Source: a candidate division FCPU426 bacterium
Lineage (GTDB): Bacteria > Oederibacteriota > Muellerivitia > Muellerivitales > Muellerivitaceae
Direction of reading: 5' to 3'
DNA: 64,000 nt
Assembly (NCBI GenBank): GCA_030041545.1
Contig: JASHNQ010000005.1
Location: forward strand, 1 to 64,000
Part shown: positions 3,163 to 56,448 of the stretch, piece after piece
Layout: the number at the start of each line of letters is the position of its first letter
Numbering within the stretch: the stretch's first letter is position 1
The notes under the pieces: model-generated
Seen by the model: only the letters and a program-made list of their open reading frames with translations
Told to the model about the DNA's origin: nothing
The model's database searches: none
Program-made: the position numbers and the translations under genes

Positions 3163-3167
3163 TTATT

Positions 3168-3204
3168 CCCTCTCCCTTAAGGGGAGAGGGCTAGGGTGAG
3201 GGTG
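3168..3204 (+). repeat. L-type palindromic half-site flanking the DUF559 gene (downstream side)
   Basis: ccctctcccttaaggggagagggctagggtgagggtg; inverted relative to the copy at 3545-3583. Confidence 0.85.
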
Positions 3205-3553
3205 AATTTTGAATCCGCTGGCGGATATATTCTAAAACCGCGTCAAGATTAGCAAGGGTTTCATTATTCCAAATGCGGATCACCCGAAAACCTTCTTTTC
3301 CAAGGGAAACTGTTCTGGCATCATCTTTTTCATGGTTTTTCTGGTGTTGACCTCCATCAAGTTCAATAACCAACTTCTTATCCAACGAACAAAAATCAAC
3401 GATAAAAGGGCCGATAGGCAATTGGCGCCTAAATTTGATACCAAGCAATTGGCGGGAACGCAAACGGCTCCAAAGCAATTTTTCCGCGTCGGTTTGATTT
3501 TGACGAAGGGAACGAGAAACAGGCTTAAGGCGTCTACTTCTCATCACCCTCAC
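3191..3553 (-). CDS. DUF559 domain protein (VSR-like PD-(D/E)XK endonuclease fold)
   Basis: LRQNQTDAEKLLWSRLRSRQLLGIKFRRQLPIGPFIVDFCSLDKKLVIELDGGQH...GFRVIRIWNNETLANLDAVLEYI, typical of DUF559. Start and stop codons both fall inside flanking repeat halves. Confidence 0.85.
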   Translation of the reverse strand: MRVMRSRRLKPVSRSLRQNQTDAEKLLWSRLRSRQLLGIKFRRQLPIGPFIVDFCSLDKKLVIELDGGQHQKNHEKDDARTVSLGKEGFRVIRIWNNETLANLDAVLEYIRQRIQNSPSP

Positions 3554-3583
3554 CCTGCCCCTCTCCCCTCAAGGGAGAGGGCT
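3545..3583 (-). repeat. L-type palindromic half-site flanking the DUF559 gene (upstream side)
   Basis: caccctcaccctgcccctctcccctcaagggagaggg on + strand, reverse complement of the 3168 copy. Confidence 0.85.
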
Positions 3584-3657
3584 AAAATCTCAAGAAGCAT
3601 ATCGCCAGGTTCGTGTTTTTGGACGCTTCCCAGGGTTGGACTGGAATTCGAGATTGA

Positions 3658-7194: not shown

Positions 7195-7335
7195 AATTAT
7201 GCCCACTTACACGAAGCCACGAAGCCACAAAGAAACCTTGGAATCCGGAAAAGAAACAAGCGGTCTATTTTTAAACAAGTCCTTCACTTCGACTTTCTCC
7301 GTGTCTTTTTGGCTTGGTGTTGGCTTTTGTTTTAA

Positions 7336-7488
7336 GAGCCGGTAACAAAATTCGTTTTTAACGCCTATCCCCCCTCTCCCTCGAGGGGAGAGGGCCGGGG
7401 TGAGGGTGGATTTTACTTGGCGAAAACACCCCTCACCCTACCCTCTCCCGCAAGGGGCGAGGGTTTAGGTTAATTTTGTTACCGGCTC
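7336..7488. mobile_element. MITE-like palindromic element, L-R type, TSD TAA
   Basis: TIR gagccggtaacaaaa...ttttgttaccggctc; flanked by taa at 7333-7335 and 7489-7491; internal L and R halves. Confidence 0.85.
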
Positions 7489-7919
7489 TAAAGGTAGGTG
7501 TCCAAAAGCACCCCCCGGATCTCGTCCAGTGTGGCCAGGATCTTCATGGAGTCCTGCTGGCCCGCCAAAAGAAGTTGGGCCAGGTTTTCCAGGGCCCCGT
7601 CCACTTTTTGCATCATCAGGTAGACCACGAATTTCCCGTCCTTCTTCTGCCCGTGCTTCTCCTCCACGCGGAAGGAGACGTTCACGACCCTGTCCATGAA
7701 CTTCTTCACCGAGGCCTTGTACTCCTCGAATTCCCGCCGGCCCTTGCTGGCGAAGAGTTTCTTGCCTTTGTCCTCGACTTCCAGGATCAGGCCGGCCAGT
7801 TCGGCCTTCAAGGACGGGTCGGACACCTTTTGGATTCGCTCGTTCAGGGCCGGCGCGAAAAGGGGCGCGATGGGCTGGGGCTTCTCGAATTCCGTGTCGC
7901 CGATTTTCTCGATTTTCAT
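7488..7919 (-). CDS. YaaR-like (DUF327) protein
   Basis: FEEYKASVKKFMDRVVNVSFRVEEKHGQKKDGKFVVYLMMQKVDGALENLAQLLLAGQQDSMKILATLDEIRGVLLDTYL resembles the YaaR/DUF327 family. Confidence 0.7.
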   Translation of the reverse strand: MKIEKIGDTEFEKPQPIAPLFAPALNERIQKVSDPSLKAELAGLILEVEDKGKKLFASKGRREFEEYKASVKKFMDRVVNVSFRVEEKHGQKKDGKFVVYLMMQKVDGALENLAQLLLAGQQDSMKILATLDEIRGVLLDTYL

Positions 7920-11445: not shown

Positions 11446-11491
11446 ATTTCCAACCGTCGACTGCCGACCGCCGACCTTCAGCTGGTTCTTA

Positions 11492-11701
11492 GAGACTCTA
11501 ACAAAACCCTGTTTTTAAGAAATATCCCCCTCTCCCTTGAGGGGAGAGGGACGGGGTGAGGGTGGCAACTGCAGGATTTTCCACACCCCTCACCGGGTTC
11601 GACTCCCTTCGGTCGCTCACCGCAAGCCTACCCTCCTGCCCTGAGGCTCTCGAAGGGCTCCCGCAAGGGGCGAGGGTCTTGGGAGGTTTTGTTAGAGTCT
11701 C
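11492..11701. mobile_element. MITE-like palindromic element, L-R type, TSD TTA, carrying two extra internal inserts
   Basis: TIR gagactctaacaaaac / gttttgttagagtctc (right end ...aggttttgttagagtctc); tta at 11489-11491 and 11702-11704. Compared with the 154-bp copies it contains inserted ~33 bp (gggttcgactcccttcggtcgctcaccgcaagc) and ~23 bp (ctgccctgaggctctcgaagggc). Confidence 0.88.
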
Positions 11702-12569
11702 TTAGTCCGATAACCTTCAGCGGTTGCCGGGCCAGCCGCACTTTCAGGCGGTCACCCAACCGGAATGGCATTTCCAAGTTGGCCCCGTCGATGAACACCC
11801 GACCCTCTTTCATGTAGGAAATCACCTCCAGGGATTGGCCCGCGCCCAGGACGCCCTTCAGCAAACGGCGCGGCCCGAATTTTCTCTGATAGGCTTCCCT
11901 GACGATGAACTGGAATTTTTTCGACGATACCGGGAGGATCTTTCCCCCGGCCGAGTAAGCGGCCGCAGTGGAACCCGCCGCCGTGCTGATCCAGACGCCG
12001 CTGGACATCTGTTCTTCCATCCGGGAACCGATTTTAAGGACATAGCGCGAAGTGCCGGCGGGGCTTAGGGTGGTGACCAAGAGGTCGTTTAAAACGGGCC
12101 ATTTCCCCTTGGCGCCGTTGATTGAAAACTCAAGGCGGGGCACAGGGACCGGGCGAAGCCCGCCCTCCCAAAAATTCCTGAAAATCCGCCAAAAGCTTTT
12201 AACCTCGCACCCACTGAAACGCGCCACGCTTCGGGAGGGATCGGAGTTCACCCCCAGGACCGGCGTTTCGCGGACGTGGTGGGAGGCGTCCAACAGGGTC
12301 CCGTCCCCCCCGACCGTGACCACCAGGCTATATTTCCCATCAATGTCCTTCAACCGATGGACTTTGTCGCGCATCACCACCACTGGCGCGAACCCCTTGG
12401 CCTTGAGCGTGCGCAGCACCGTCCGCAAGGTCCGGTGGTGCCGTTGATGACTTCCTAATATGACCTTCCAATACCTGCCGGTTTTCAGGCTGCCGGGTAC
12501 CCGCCTCGAGGAAAGGTACTGGCTATAGGCGCTTTCCTTGTAAACCACCAGCACTTTGGGTTTCGCCAC
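11628..12569 (-). CDS. nadK: NAD kinase
   Basis: YSLVVTVGGDGTLLDASHHV..PVLGVNSDPSRS..SSGVWISTAAGSTAAAYSAGGKILP. A GTG start at 12569 is more plausible than the ORF-track start; the C-terminus is encoded by the inserted repeat. Confidence 0.88.
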   Translation of the reverse strand: MAKPKVLVVYKESAYSQYLSSRRVPGSLKTGRYWKVILGSHQRHHRTLRTVLRTLKAKGFAPVVVMRDKVHRLKDIDGKYSLVVTVGGDGTLLDASHHVRETPVLGVNSDPSRSVARFSGCEVKSFWRIFRNFWEGGLRPVPVPRLEFSINGAKGKWPVLNDLLVTTLSPAGTSRYVLKIGSRMEEQMSSGVWISTAAGSTAAAYSAGGKILPVSSKKFQFIVREAYQRKFGPRRLLKGVLGAGQSLEVISYMKEGRVFIDGANLEMPFRLGDRLKVRLARQPLKVIGLRDSNKTSQDPRPLREPFESLRAGG

Positions 12570-18772: not shown

Positions 18773-19405
18773 ATGAACAACCCAAACACCTCGAAAATAA
18801 TCAAAGAGCTTAAGCGTCTTTATCCTGACACGCGCTGCTTCCTTCACTACAAGACGCCCTTCCAGCTTCTCTGCGCCGTCATCCTTTCCGCCCAGTGCAC
18901 GGACGAAAGGGTGAACATGGTGGCTCCCGAACTTTTCAAGGTGTTCCCCACCCCCGAAAAGATGGCGCGCGCCAAGCAAAAGGACGTGGAGAAAATCGTC
19001 AAATCCACCGGCTTTTACCACAACAAGGCCAAGAACCTTTTAGGGGCCGCTCAAGCCTTGCTGGGCTTGTACAAAGGGAAGATGCCCAAGACGATCGGAG
19101 AAATGGTGAAGATCCCGGGAGTCGGCCGCAAAACGGCCAACGTGGTGCTGGGGGAGGTTTATGGCGTTTCGGAAGGCATTGTGGTGGATACCCACGTCAC
19201 CCGGTTGAGCAACCGGCTGGGCTTCACCCGGCGCCAGGACGCGGTGAAGATCGAGCAGGATTTAATGAAGATCGTCCCGAAAGAGGAGTGGATTCATTTC
19301 TCCCACCGCCTTATCCAGCATGGACGCAAGGTCTGTGGGGCAAGAAAACCTTCATGCGGTTTTTGTACGCTCTCCCAATGGTGTCCCTCGGCATTTAAAA
19401 CTTAA
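18773..19405 (+). CDS. nth: Endonuclease III
   Basis: FHYKTPFQLLCAVILSAQCTDERVN..STGFYHNKAKNLLGAAQALL..MVKIPGVGRKTANVVLGEVYG..VDTHVTRLSNRLG; C-terminal [4Fe-4S] CGARKPSCGFCTLSQWC. Start at 18773 (MNNPNTSKIIKELK). Confidence 0.95.
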   Translation: MNNPNTSKIIKELKRLYPDTRCFLHYKTPFQLLCAVILSAQCTDERVNMVAPELFKVFPTPEKMARAKQKDVEKIVKSTGFYHNKAKNLLGAAQALLGLYKGKMPKTIGEMVKIPGVGRKTANVVLGEVYGVSEGIVVDTHVTRLSNRLGFTRRQDAVKIEQDLMKIVPKEEWIHFSHRLIQHGRKVCGARKPSCGFCTLSQWCPSAFKT

Positions 19406-19692
19406 GACCGGCCCTGCGCCGAGCCCCCAAGGCGAGGCGCAAGCATTGGGGGTGCCATTCCAAGGGAATGGTACAAGGTCCGTGACGCACGCAAGCCCCT
19501 TTGCAACGCTTGCGCCCTGGCCAAGTGGTGCCCTTCAGCATTTAAACTTAAGACCGGCCCTGCGCCGAGCCCCCAAGGCGAGGCGCAAGCATTGGGGGTG
19601 CCATTCCGAGGGAATGGTACAAGGCCTGTGACGCACGCAAGCCCCTTTGCAACGCCTGCGCCCTGGCCAAGTGGCGTCCCTCAGTGGTGAAA
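19401..19692 (+). repeat. Two tandem ~146-bp units, each carrying a decayed copy of an nth 3' end
   Basis: Unit 1 begins cttaagaccggccctgcgccgag at 19401, unit 2 at 19547. Translation contains KVRDARKPLCNACALAKWCPSAFK and KACDARKPLCNACALAKWRPS. Confidence 0.9.
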
Positions 19693-31674: not shown

Positions 31675-31742
31675 GGTTTTTCCTTCAGCGGATATACGAT
31701 CTTCAAGAATTAGACGAAGCGGCGTTGATGGAAGTTCAAAAC

Positions 31743-31903
31743 GGTAGTGTCTCAGTTTGAATGGCCTAATCCAACTTCACCCTCACCCCTCCCTCTCCCC
31801 TCAAGGGAGAGGGGGAAATACCCGCAAAAACCCTCGCCCCTTGGGGAGAGGGTAGGGTGAGGGGTGTCTGGGATTTTTGTTGAAACGAAACTGATGCACT
31901 ACC
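31743..31903. mobile_element. MITE-like palindromic element, R-L type, 8-bp TSD TTCAAAAC
   Basis: TIR ggtagtgtctcagttt / aaactgatgcactacc; ttcaaaac at 31735-31742 and 31904-31911. Confidence 0.9.
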
Positions 31904-35206: not shown

Positions 35207-35318
35207 GGATTTCCCGCCGTTCTTCCCGCCTTAAAAGGGGAGCCTTGACCCGGCTCATGATGCACAAAAAAGCCTCTGGAATCAAAACTAAAATGGGCTC
35301 GGCCGGTTGGCCTTTTGC

Positions 35319-35480
35319 GGTAGTGTCTCAGTTTGAATGGCCTAATCCAACTTCACCCTCACCCCTCCCTCTCCCCTCAAGGGAGAGGGGGAAATACCCG
35401 CAAAAACCCTCGCCCCTTGGGGGAGAGGGTAGGGTGAGGGGTGTCTGGGATTTTTGTTGAAACGAAACTGATGCACTACC
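35319..35480. mobile_element. MITE-like palindromic element, R-L type, 8-bp TSD CCTTTTGC
   Basis: Nearly identical to 31743-31903 (one G indel); ccttttgc at 35311-35318 and 35481-35488. Confidence 0.92.
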
Positions 35481-45486: not shown

Positions 45487-45525
45487 ACGTCAGCCCACAG
45501 CTGACAGTCCACAGTTCACGGCTAA

Positions 45526-45679
45526 GAGACTCTAACAAAACCCTGTTTTTAAGGAATATCTCCCTCTCCCTTGAGGGGAGAGGGATGGGGTGAGGGTGGC
45601 AACTGCAGGGTTTTCCACACCCCTCACCCTACCCTCTCCCGCAAGGGGCGAGGGTCTGCGGCGGTTTTGTTAGAGTCTC
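45526..45679. mobile_element. MITE-like palindromic element, L-R type, TSD TAA
   Basis: 154 bp, identical by eye to 56227-56380; taa at 45523-45525 and 45680-45682. Confidence 0.92.
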
Positions 45680-45745
45680 TAAGTCTCAAATCGCACCTTC
45701 ACCGTCTTCCCTGTCGACCGTGAGCTGCCGGATGTGAGCTGCCTT

Positions 45746-51958: not shown

Positions 51959-51984
51959 TTTTTACCCCTGGTAAAAATTTTAAA

Positions 51985-52152
51985 TCGCTGTCATTGCGAG
52001 GAGCGACCCGCGAATAGCGGGAAATTTGCGACGCGGCAACCTCAGTTTTAAAAAGGCGAAGCAGCCGTTTGGGGAAAAGGCTTATTTAGACTGAGGTTGC
52101 TTCGTCATAAACGCCTCACTATTCGTGAGGCATTCCTCGCAATGACAGCGAT
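51985..52152. repeat. Palindromic element, TGTCATTGCGAG family
   Basis: aatcgctgtcattgcgaggagcgac..gcgacgcggcaacctcagt...actgaggttgcttcgtc..cctcgcaatgacagcgatt. Confidence 0.88.
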
Positions 52153-52166
52153 TTTCACGCTGAAAA

Positions 52167-53785: not shown

Positions 53786-54727
53786 TCAGCTTCTTACAAT
53801 TGTTACTCGGACAAAATCCATGATTAATTGGCCGACTTCTTCCGGTTTTTCTTGAGGAACCAAGTGCCCAGTTGCCGGAACTACTTTCATGATAGCCCTG
53901 GGATTGGCCTTTCTAAAGGCCTTTTCGCCATCCGCAGTAAAGGTATTTGAATTCTCTCCCCGGATAACCAACGTGGCTTGTTGAAGCTGTTTTGCGAATT
54001 TCCAGACATCGGTTGGGATGGTCCTGTAAATCTGTGCTTCCCACTCGGGCGGATAAATAAGGTGCACCCCACCTTGCGAGGAAGGCGCGGCGATACTTTC
54101 CGTGTAGGTTTTTACCATCTCATCCGACCAATTCTTGAAAAGTTGCCGACCCCTAAAATAATCATAGGCCGCCCGGGAGCTTTCCCACTCCCTTTTTCGC
54201 CGCAATGCACCTTTAATCAAAAAAGAGCGTTCTTCATAGCCAAAAAACTTCAAAAACTTCATCCTCCATAAAATCCAGGGCGAAAGCAGGGTGGGGTCAA
54301 TGAGGATCACGTGGCTGAAAAGCTCGGGTTGCTTGACGGCGGCATAGAGGGTCAACACACCACCTAGGCTGTGGCCAATACCAACAACCTTTCCACCACC
54401 CTCACCCCAACCCTCTCCCCTCAAGGGAGAGGAGGCGCTTCCACTAAAACCCTCGCCCCTTGCGGGAGAGGGTAGGGTGAGGGGTGACGTCAGGGTTTTA
54501 AGCCCATCAACCATATCCTCCGCCAATTGGGACCAATGCTTAAGCCATTGAGGCGGGGTATTACCCCACATGGGACGAATGGGAATGGAAACGACGTGGT
54601 AATGCGGGAAAAGTGGTTCTAAGGTTTTTTGGTAGGTCGGCGGAAGAAAACCATTCGCGTGGGCCAGGTGGAGGAGAGGCTTGGTGGAACCGGGGTTGAA
54701 TTCAAATAAATTGTAATTTGCTGTCAT
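53786..54727 (-). CDS. Alpha/beta hydrolase with in-frame repeat insertion
   Basis: LLHLAHANGFLPPTYQKTLEPLFPHYHVVSIPIRPMWG..VVGIGHSLGGVLTLYAAVKQPELFSHVILIDP..VVPATGHLVPQEKPEEVGQLI. Confidence 0.88.
   Translation of the reverse strand: MTANYNLFEFNPGSTKPLLHLAHANGFLPPTYQKTLEPLFPHYHVVSIPIRPMWGNTPPQWLKHWSQLAEDMVDGLKTLTSPLTLPSPARGEGFSGSASSPLRGEGWGEGGGKVVGIGHSLGGVLTLYAAVKQPELFSHVILIDPTLLSPWILWRMKFLKFFGYEERSFLIKGALRRKREWESSRAAYDYFRGRQLFKNWSDEMVKTYTESIAAPSSQGGVHLIYPPEWEAQIYRTIPTDVWKFAKQLQQATLVIRGENSNTFTADGEKAFRKANPRAIMKVVPATGHLVPQEKPEEVGQLIMDFVRVTIVRS
54394..54487. repeat. R-L type palindromic repeat inside the hydrolase coding sequence
   Basis: ccaccctcaccccaaccctctcccctcaagggagagg...ccctcgccccttgcgggagagggtagggtgaggggtga, translated TSPLTLPSPARGEGFSGSASSPLRGEGWGEGGG. 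Confidence 0.9.
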
Positions 54728-56180: not shown

Positions 56181-56226
56181 CTCCCAGGTATTAGGTTTCA
56201 GGCATTAGCTAAAACCGAGACTTTTA

Positions 56227-56380
56227 GAGACTCTAACAAAACCCTGTTTTTAAGGAATATCTCCCTCTCCCTTGAGGGGAGAGGGATGGGGTGAGGGTGG
56301 CAACTGCAGGGTTTTCCACACCCCTCACCCTACCCTCTCCCGCAAGGGGCGAGGGTCTGCGGCGGTTTTGTTAGAGTCTC
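56227..56380. mobile_element. MITE-like palindromic element, L-R type, TSD TTA, between clpP and clpX
   Basis: 154 bp identical by eye to 45526-45679; tta at 56224-56226 and 56381-56383. Confidence 0.92.
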
Positions 56381-56448
56381 TTAGAATTCGACGTTGTATT
56401 TTACTGCTTTTTGCCGTCCCTGGCACCTGATACCTGACACCTGATTTG

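Follow-up and report, generated by a model that had tools for sequence, protein, structure and literature searches.

The window, the whole stretch of 64,000 nucleotides analysed here, contains at 3165-3590 a small gene for a nuclease of the DUF559/YcjD family, which is situated between two inverted copies of a palindromic repeat. This unit comprises three features:

3191-3553, minus strand: DUF559/YcjD-family PD-(D/E)XK nuclease gene, 120 aa (open reading frame, Pfam match, residue conservation)
3547-3581, minus strand: putative triplex element of BoxC type located 5' of the gene, made up of a hairpin (3581-3559), the linker GCA and a mirror tail (3555-3547) that runs into the gene
3168-3202, plus strand: inverted putative triplex element of BoxC type located 3' of the gene, made up of a hairpin (3168-3190), the linker CTA and a mirror tail (3194-3202) that runs into the gene

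In each of the bracketing copies CCCTCTCCC and GGGAGAGGG form a perfect hairpin of 9 bp; a linker of 3 nt and the G-rich tail GGGTGAGGG follow. The order is CCCTCTCCC-TTAAG-GGGAGAGGG-CTA-GGGTGAGGG in the element 3168-3202 (plus strand) and CCCTCTCCC-TTGAG-GGGAGAGGG-GCA-GGGTGAGGG in the element 3547-3581 (minus strand), and the two 38-nt inverted-repeat arms of the unit are 92% complementary. The GTG start codon (3553-3551) lies inside the tail of the 5'-side element, and the TAG stop codon (3193-3191) forms the linker of the 3'-side element. The original prediction, that the reading frame is bounded by inverted copies of the repeat and starts and stops inside half-sites, is thus confirmed. Since the 3.8-Mb genome contains 101 occurrences of the palindrome core and none of the reversed pattern used as a control, the bracketing of the gene is not due to chance.

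Every clear DUF559 copy of the source genome, a draft from candidate phylum FCPU426, is bracketed by inverted repeats. The second gene (C60:2668-2979) has inverted copies of the R type on both sides. The third (C85:57070-57392, loci L003/L004) is broken by a TAG codon and a frameshift; it is bracketed by a different repeat family (CCCCACTTTGAAAAAGGGGGGAAGAGGGGGATTTAG; CCCCACTTTGAAAAAGGGGG type; AAA-GGGGG), which follows the same plan of a hairpin plus a mirror tail. A fourth match in this genome (C114), weak and partial, has no bracketing repeat.

The window protein matches the whole Pfam domain DUF559 (PF04480) with E=2.6e-39 and 133.9 bits, the curated cut-off being 20.6 bits. Four residues, E24, E64, D66 and H70, do not vary among 54 relatives, and D53 is near-invariant (at least 90%); by analogy with Vsr these five are presumed to be catalytic. 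An AF2 model (pLDDT 85.7, pTM 0.81) is closest to the DUF559 protein of N. gonorrhoeae (PDB 3HRL, TMt 0.86), followed by the catalytic domain of I-Bth0305I (3R3P, 0.72), with Vsr lower. The model and the conserved acidic and histidine residues thus indicate a PD-(D/E)XK/Vsr fold with an intact core, as had been expected from the sequence. The protein is not a canonical Vsr mismatch endonuclease, as it reaches only 20.2 bits against TIGR00632 (cut-off 97.85). DUF559/YcjD (PF04480, COG2852) has hitherto been known only as a predicted nuclease, with no role assigned (PMC1189080). It had also been supposed that proteins of this family often end in SPSP-like tails translated from the repeats. The window gene (...NSPSP*) and E. 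coli H240 (...NRRSPSP) do have such tails, which are common but not universal, a crude count giving 53 of 148.

Structure of the repeat

Repeats of the BoxC/PIT/triplex type have been described since the 1990s without known function or spreading agent. Judged by its sequence, the window repeat is this known BoxC/PIT/TM_ECO intrastrand-triplex motif. Both elements at the DUF559 gene conform to the published consensus of a C-rich arm, a loop of 3-6 nt, a G-rich arm, a linker of 3 nt and a G-rich third strand, given as CCCTCNCCCN3-6GGGNGAGGGN3GGGNGAGGG (Holder et al. 2015, PMC4666352). The window repeats in general fit the pattern with linkers of 2-3 nt; they form inverted pairs and have two linker types, and inverted BoxC pairs were reported always to join two linker types (PMC4666352). 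Their number varies strongly between close relatives, just as E. coli strains have very different numbers of BoxC (29 copies in 55989, 1 in IHE3034; PMC4666352). The repeat described here differs from the published account in being tied to a nuclease gene, since neither a mobility gene or activity near the BoxC repeats nor a function was found there (Holder et al. 2015, PMC4666352). It differs further in that DUF559 is accompanied in other phyla by many more arm and tail types that follow the same mirror rule. Rfam contains no family for the window repeat.

The tail mirrors the 3' arm, with G opposite G and A opposite A or T, which is what would be expected for G.G-C, A.A-T and T.A-T triples. 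The mirror match between an element's own arm and tail exceeds that of permuted pairs with z=17.8; reading arm and tail as a direct repeat gives a weaker signal (z 8.0), and this reading was rejected. Two variable positions covary between arm and tail in 38 of 38 (p 4e-11) and 37 of 38 cases (p 2e-8). For this count the tails were anchored by a pattern independent of the mirror rule, because anchoring on the first GG blurs the column counts through the variable linker length.

In elements with long linkers the linker is self-complementary although its sequence varies (mean longest stem 5.1 vs 3.2 in shuffled linkers). As these linkers are hairpins of varying sequence, the conserved feature would seem to be a folded single strand. 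For the single-stranded E. coli motif a stable purine-motif triplex has been demonstrated in vitro by CD and NMR; no stable triplex was evident from duplex or in vivo data (PMC4666352). For the window repeats it is the mirror covariation that speaks for triplex folding, and a G-quadruplex is a possible alternative for the G runs. At one locus, L209 in genome G228, a DUF559 gene lies between inverted repeats whose linker is enlarged into a long complex structure.

Co-occurrence of DUF559 and the repeat

The flanks of DUF559 genes were compared with those of other small genes in many phyla, the loci being picked either for their similarity to the window protein or for having the best E-value. 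A strict triplex element lies within 150 bp of 122 of the 144 DUF559 genes, compared with 10 of 234 small open reading frames (p ~8e-63), so the predicted enrichment withstood this check. Inward-facing elements on both sides were found for 46 of the 144 genes and for none of 576 control reading frames. The best inverted repeat across the gene scores at least 30 at 28 of 75 DUF559 loci; among 3748 size-matched windows of the same loci only six reach this score. The two elements of one DUF559 gene also resemble each other (0.82 vs 0.64 in permuted pairs, permuted maximum 0.72).

At 80 DUF559 loci from named genomes the upstream sequence mostly consists of a hairpin plus tail whose sequence is lineage-specific. 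Arm/tail variants beside DUF559 include CCCTCCCCC/GGGTGGGGG, CCTTCTCCC/GGATGAGGG with a mini-hairpin as linker, CCCCTCTTA/GGGGAGTTA and CCCCCTTT/GGGGGATTT. The hosts belong to the Pseudomonadota, Nitrospirae, Deltaproteobacteria, Omnitrophota, Spirochaetes, Chloroflexi, Planctomycetes, Patescibacteria and Elusimicrobia. None of 13 distant DUF559-like or Vsr-like matches has a strict element beside it; on this sequence evidence the link appears to be specific to the compact DUF559 family.

At the genome level we searched one set of 398 Pseudomonadota genomes, a species-level sample, for DUF559, Vsr and a generalised repeat pattern; the statistics ignore kinship. At least three repeats were found in 94 of the 116 genomes with a strong DUF559 match (E<=1e-20) and in 20 of the 282 others (odds ratio 56, p ~4e-49). 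The strong-DUF559 genomes hold 4757 of the 5274 repeat copies (90%), and the reversed-pattern control is near zero. Repeat abundance is consequently not independent of DUF559 presence. Fifteen strong-DUF559 genomes do not match the repeat pattern, and at least some of these have other mirror-tail types (e.g. G421, locus L193). Conversely, many repeats without an intact DUF559 gene were found in G229, G088, G271, G105 and G302 and, within FCPU426, in G019 and G022. These repeats are possibly relics after loss of DUF559 or the product of a different agent.

Vsr has no independent association with the repeats (odds ratio 1.6, p 0.40, among DUF559-negative genomes), and the odds ratio for DUF559 is about 50 both with and without Vsr, so that Vsr is ruled out as an equally good predictor. 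Among 74 of the Pseudomonadota genomes Y1/RAYT genes are likewise not associated with the repeats (odds ratio 0.65, p 0.44); in the same 74 genomes the odds ratio for DUF559 is 142. Carriage by phages or plasmids was rejected as a route: DUF559 occurs in 1 of 50,697 phages and in 44 of 72,556 plasmid records, several of the latter being megaplasmids or chromosome-sized.

We considered whether the brackets could be ordinary GC-rich terminators or attenuators, with the genome-level link reflecting shared ancestry. Hairpins are indeed common after genes and were present in 33% of the downstream regions of control reading frames. The DUF559 genes are enriched, however, for a hairpin plus mirror tail with a defined orientation, over many phyla, and upstream placement predominates (a hairpin upstream in 86% of 79 genes). 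PIT elements have moreover been reported to have neither terminator nor promoter activity (PMC4666352), and Vsr and Y1 show no such link in the same genomes. A role as terminators only is rejected by the orientation of the elements and by the controls, and we regard the whole explanation as hardly credible.

The DUF559 protein of E. coli is YcjD. The gene is present in 3366 of 5426 complete genomes (~62%) at one place, sapF-ycjD-fabI, and almost always once per genome (3367 places in all). Places similar to BoxC (blastn) have a median of 19 in 36 listed ycjD carriers, one of them being ycjD itself, compared with 2 in 21 non-carriers (p 1e-9). Carriers and non-carriers are not independent strains, because BoxC counts follow phylogroups, as does the alternation of ycjD with the efflux operon eefRABCD in the sapF-fabI interval (PMC12817139). 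Some non-carriers have more BoxC-like places, namely O157:H7 (11), XDL (11) and VCSW7 (15). Repeat-rich genomes lacking DUF559, such as O157:H7 and VCSW7 here and G229, G088 and G271 above, must either have lost the gene earlier or owe their repeats to another agent. The sapF-fabI interval is that of loci L253 and L254; O157:H7 has no ycjD. In other Enterobacteriaceae BoxC is often found at the 3' end of the DUF559 gene and is sometimes translated as SPSP.

Gene-free copies and insertion polymorphism

The window also contains copies of the repeat that do not enclose a gene:

7372-7463, unstranded: gene-free inward pair, L then R, ~23 bp apart, within the TIR-bearing MITE-like element 7329-7492
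11528-11562, plus strand: L element of the larger MITE-like copy 11491-11704; site empty in G028
31780-31863, unstranded: tail-out pair in the GGTAGTG...CACTACC-ended element 31742-31903
35356-35440, unstranded: tail-out pair in the GGTAGTG...CACTACC-ended element 35318-35480, near-identical to the 31742 element
45562-45654, unstranded: gene-free inward pair (L-R) in an element of 159 bp with TIRs
54396-54483, unstranded: tail-out BoxC pair, in frame in the alpha/beta-hydrolase gene 53786-54727 (minus strand)
56263-56355, unstranded: gene-free inward pair (L-R) in the element 56220-56384, with 99% identity to the 45525 copy; G028 lacks it

Two further repeats were seen in the window, a tandem pair of 144-bp direct repeats that are 94% identical (19395-19684) and a long imperfect inverted repeat with 74-nt arms and a 25-nt gap (51982-52154).

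Several of these places are polymorphic. G028 and/or G027 lack, at the orthologous places, the gene-free elements found at 7.4, 11.5, 45.5 and 56.2 kb; the pair 7372-7463 is missing from both. The DUF559 unit itself, which adjoins ligA, is present in the source genome (G000) and in one congener, G028; in another, G027, the same place is empty, so that the proposed comparison of relatives did reveal presence and absence of the unit. The pair in the hydrolase gene has no TIRs and adds about 30 residues (SPLTLPSPARGEG...SPLRGEGWGEGGG) directly before the GHSLGG nucleophile motif. As the orthologue in G027 has no BoxC pair, comparison of the two genes suggests an insertion into a conserved hydrolase gene.

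It had been proposed that the gene takes the place of the spacer in elements of 154 bp and that the gene-free palindromes derive from the DUF559 unit. The first of these proposals holds for the geometry, as the tails point inwards in both. The elements of this type at 7329-7492, 11491-11704, 45519-45683 and 56220-56384 are, however, L-R pairs in MITE-like elements whose TIRs belong to the TTAAGAGACTCTAACAAAACC type (diverged in the 7329 copy), whereas the gene lies between L and inverted L. The 154-bp element is therefore not simply the gene unit minus the gene. A derivation of the gene-free palindromes from the unit was not established, the element that appears to have inserted by itself being the tail-out pair of ~100 bp and several tail-in pairs riding in TIR MITEs.

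The TIRs point to another alternative: a different transposase, RAYT/Y1 or that of the TIR MITEs, could spread the repeats, with DUF559 as cargo. Several window copies do lie within TIR elements, those in MITEs could be moved in this way, and the source genome carries Y1 genes. Y1 presence, on the other hand, does not predict the repeats (p 0.44), G027 and G029 contain the repeats but lack Y1 altogether, and the TIR families of the window were not seen in the inspected flanks of DUF559 genes. RAYT/Y1 was rejected as the spreading agent on the ground that its presence is unlinked to the repeats, and we consider the explanation as a whole very improbable.

A candidate companion nuclease

The original prediction of a companion of the repeats is strongly supported by the flank enrichment, the co-occurrence in genomes, the difference between E. 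coli carriers and non-carriers and the presence or absence of the unit at ligA. We think it fairly probable that DUF559 (YcjD in E. coli) is a dedicated companion nuclease of the BoxC/PIT/TM_ECO intrastrand-triplex repeats, which it would cut and mobilise. Because gene and repeat co-occur across hundreds of genomes, DUF559 is likely to be the agent that spreads or maintains the repeat, and a role as mobiliser is our best inference. In such a process the single-stranded repeat, for example on the lagging-strand template, would fold into a hairpin plus third strand, and YcjD/DUF559 would recognise the folded DNA at the junction of hairpin and tail and nick it there. PD-(D/E)XK enzymes form no covalent intermediate; the copying of the paired element of ~100 bp to a new place would for this reason be completed by host repair or replication. 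The DUF559 gene would remain mostly single-copy and chromosomal and rarely move, the repeats spreading in trans as in RAYT/REP. To our knowledge PD-(D/E)XK nucleases have no strand-transfer chemistry, and the companion role therefore leaves the copying step unaccounted for.

Causality could also be reversed, the nuclease being kept because repeats are present. DUF559 would then serve genome maintenance by removing hairpins or triplexes that form obstacles at the repeats; repeat-rich genomes would keep it, and something else would spread the repeats. The association of gene and repeat is symmetric, Vsr-fold enzymes act in repair, PIT elements have been reported to block DNA polymerase in vitro (PMC4666352), and the gene is mostly single-copy and chromosomal, all of which would suit such a function. 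It fails to account for the position of the gene between inward-facing brackets (46 of 144 vs none of 576) and for the matching type of both brackets of one gene, and we regard it as rather unlikely.

The second alternative is a selfish endonuclease of the homing type that copies its gene into repeat pairs, the brackets being split target sites that protect it. The closest solved nuclease domain outside DUF559 is that of the Vsr-like homing endonuclease I-Bth0305I (PDB 3R3P), the gene is placed between two half-elements, and the empty ligA site of G027 is of the unoccupied kind into which homing would spread. Yet the copy number does not rise with the targets, as there is one fixed ycjD in 3366 E. 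coli genomes despite about 20 repeats, and the rarity of repeats where the DUF559 gene is absent is left unexplained. DUF559 differs from I-Bth0305I also in having no fused DNA-binding domain, intron or intein and in its fixed single locus in E. coli, flanked by multicopy repeats. Homing is in our opinion improbable.

The nearest functional analogue of a companion nuclease is found in the REP-RAYT systems, which are alike in layout, single-copy companion and abundance link (PMC3116915, PMC8266576, PMC3733652). REP/REPIN-RAYT (TnpA_REP, REPtron) likewise has numerous palindromes that carry a conserved single-stranded appendage and form inverted pairs (PMC2817692, PMC3116915, PMC8266576). In both systems the companion gene is mostly single-copy and chromosomal and adjoins its cognate repeats, its presence tracks repeat abundance and the repeat type follows the companion gene. 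DUF559 thus shares two traits with the companion genes of the REPtrons, cognate repeats on its flanks and a presence that predicts how abundant these are. The differences lie in the enzyme and the appendage. According to the Pfam and PDB matches DUF559 has the PD-(D/E)XK/Vsr fold, with neither an HUH motif nor a catalytic tyrosine, and for this fold we know of no strand-transfer chemistry. The appendage of the DUF559 unit is a third-strand mirror tail of 9-11 nt, and its elements contain no GTAG (or CGTC) tag. As both defining RAYT features, the HUH/Y1 enzyme and the GTAG tag, fail, DUF559-BoxC would by analogy work like a REPtron but is not one.

A search of the open-access literature at the level of titles and abstracts, with subscription papers outside its scope, yielded no link between DUF559/ycjD/COG2852 and these repeats. 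The parts are known, and the connection between DUF559 and BoxC appears to be new. We would put at about even the chances of the broader proposal, that an HUH-independent second class of repeat plus companion exists across bacteria, including YcjD-BoxC of E. coli, in which a Vsr-fold nuclease spreads the repeats by recognising a hairpin able to form a DNA triplex and cutting it in the single-stranded state. If this is true, the domain of unknown function DUF559 would receive a role, and the large differences in repeat number between E. coli lineages would in part be explained. REP-RAYT-like partnerships would then have arisen with an unrelated nuclease chemistry, a DNA triplex being the likely recognition structure. 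With a companion nuclease in ~62% of E. coli genomes, the spread of BoxC becomes testable in K-12.
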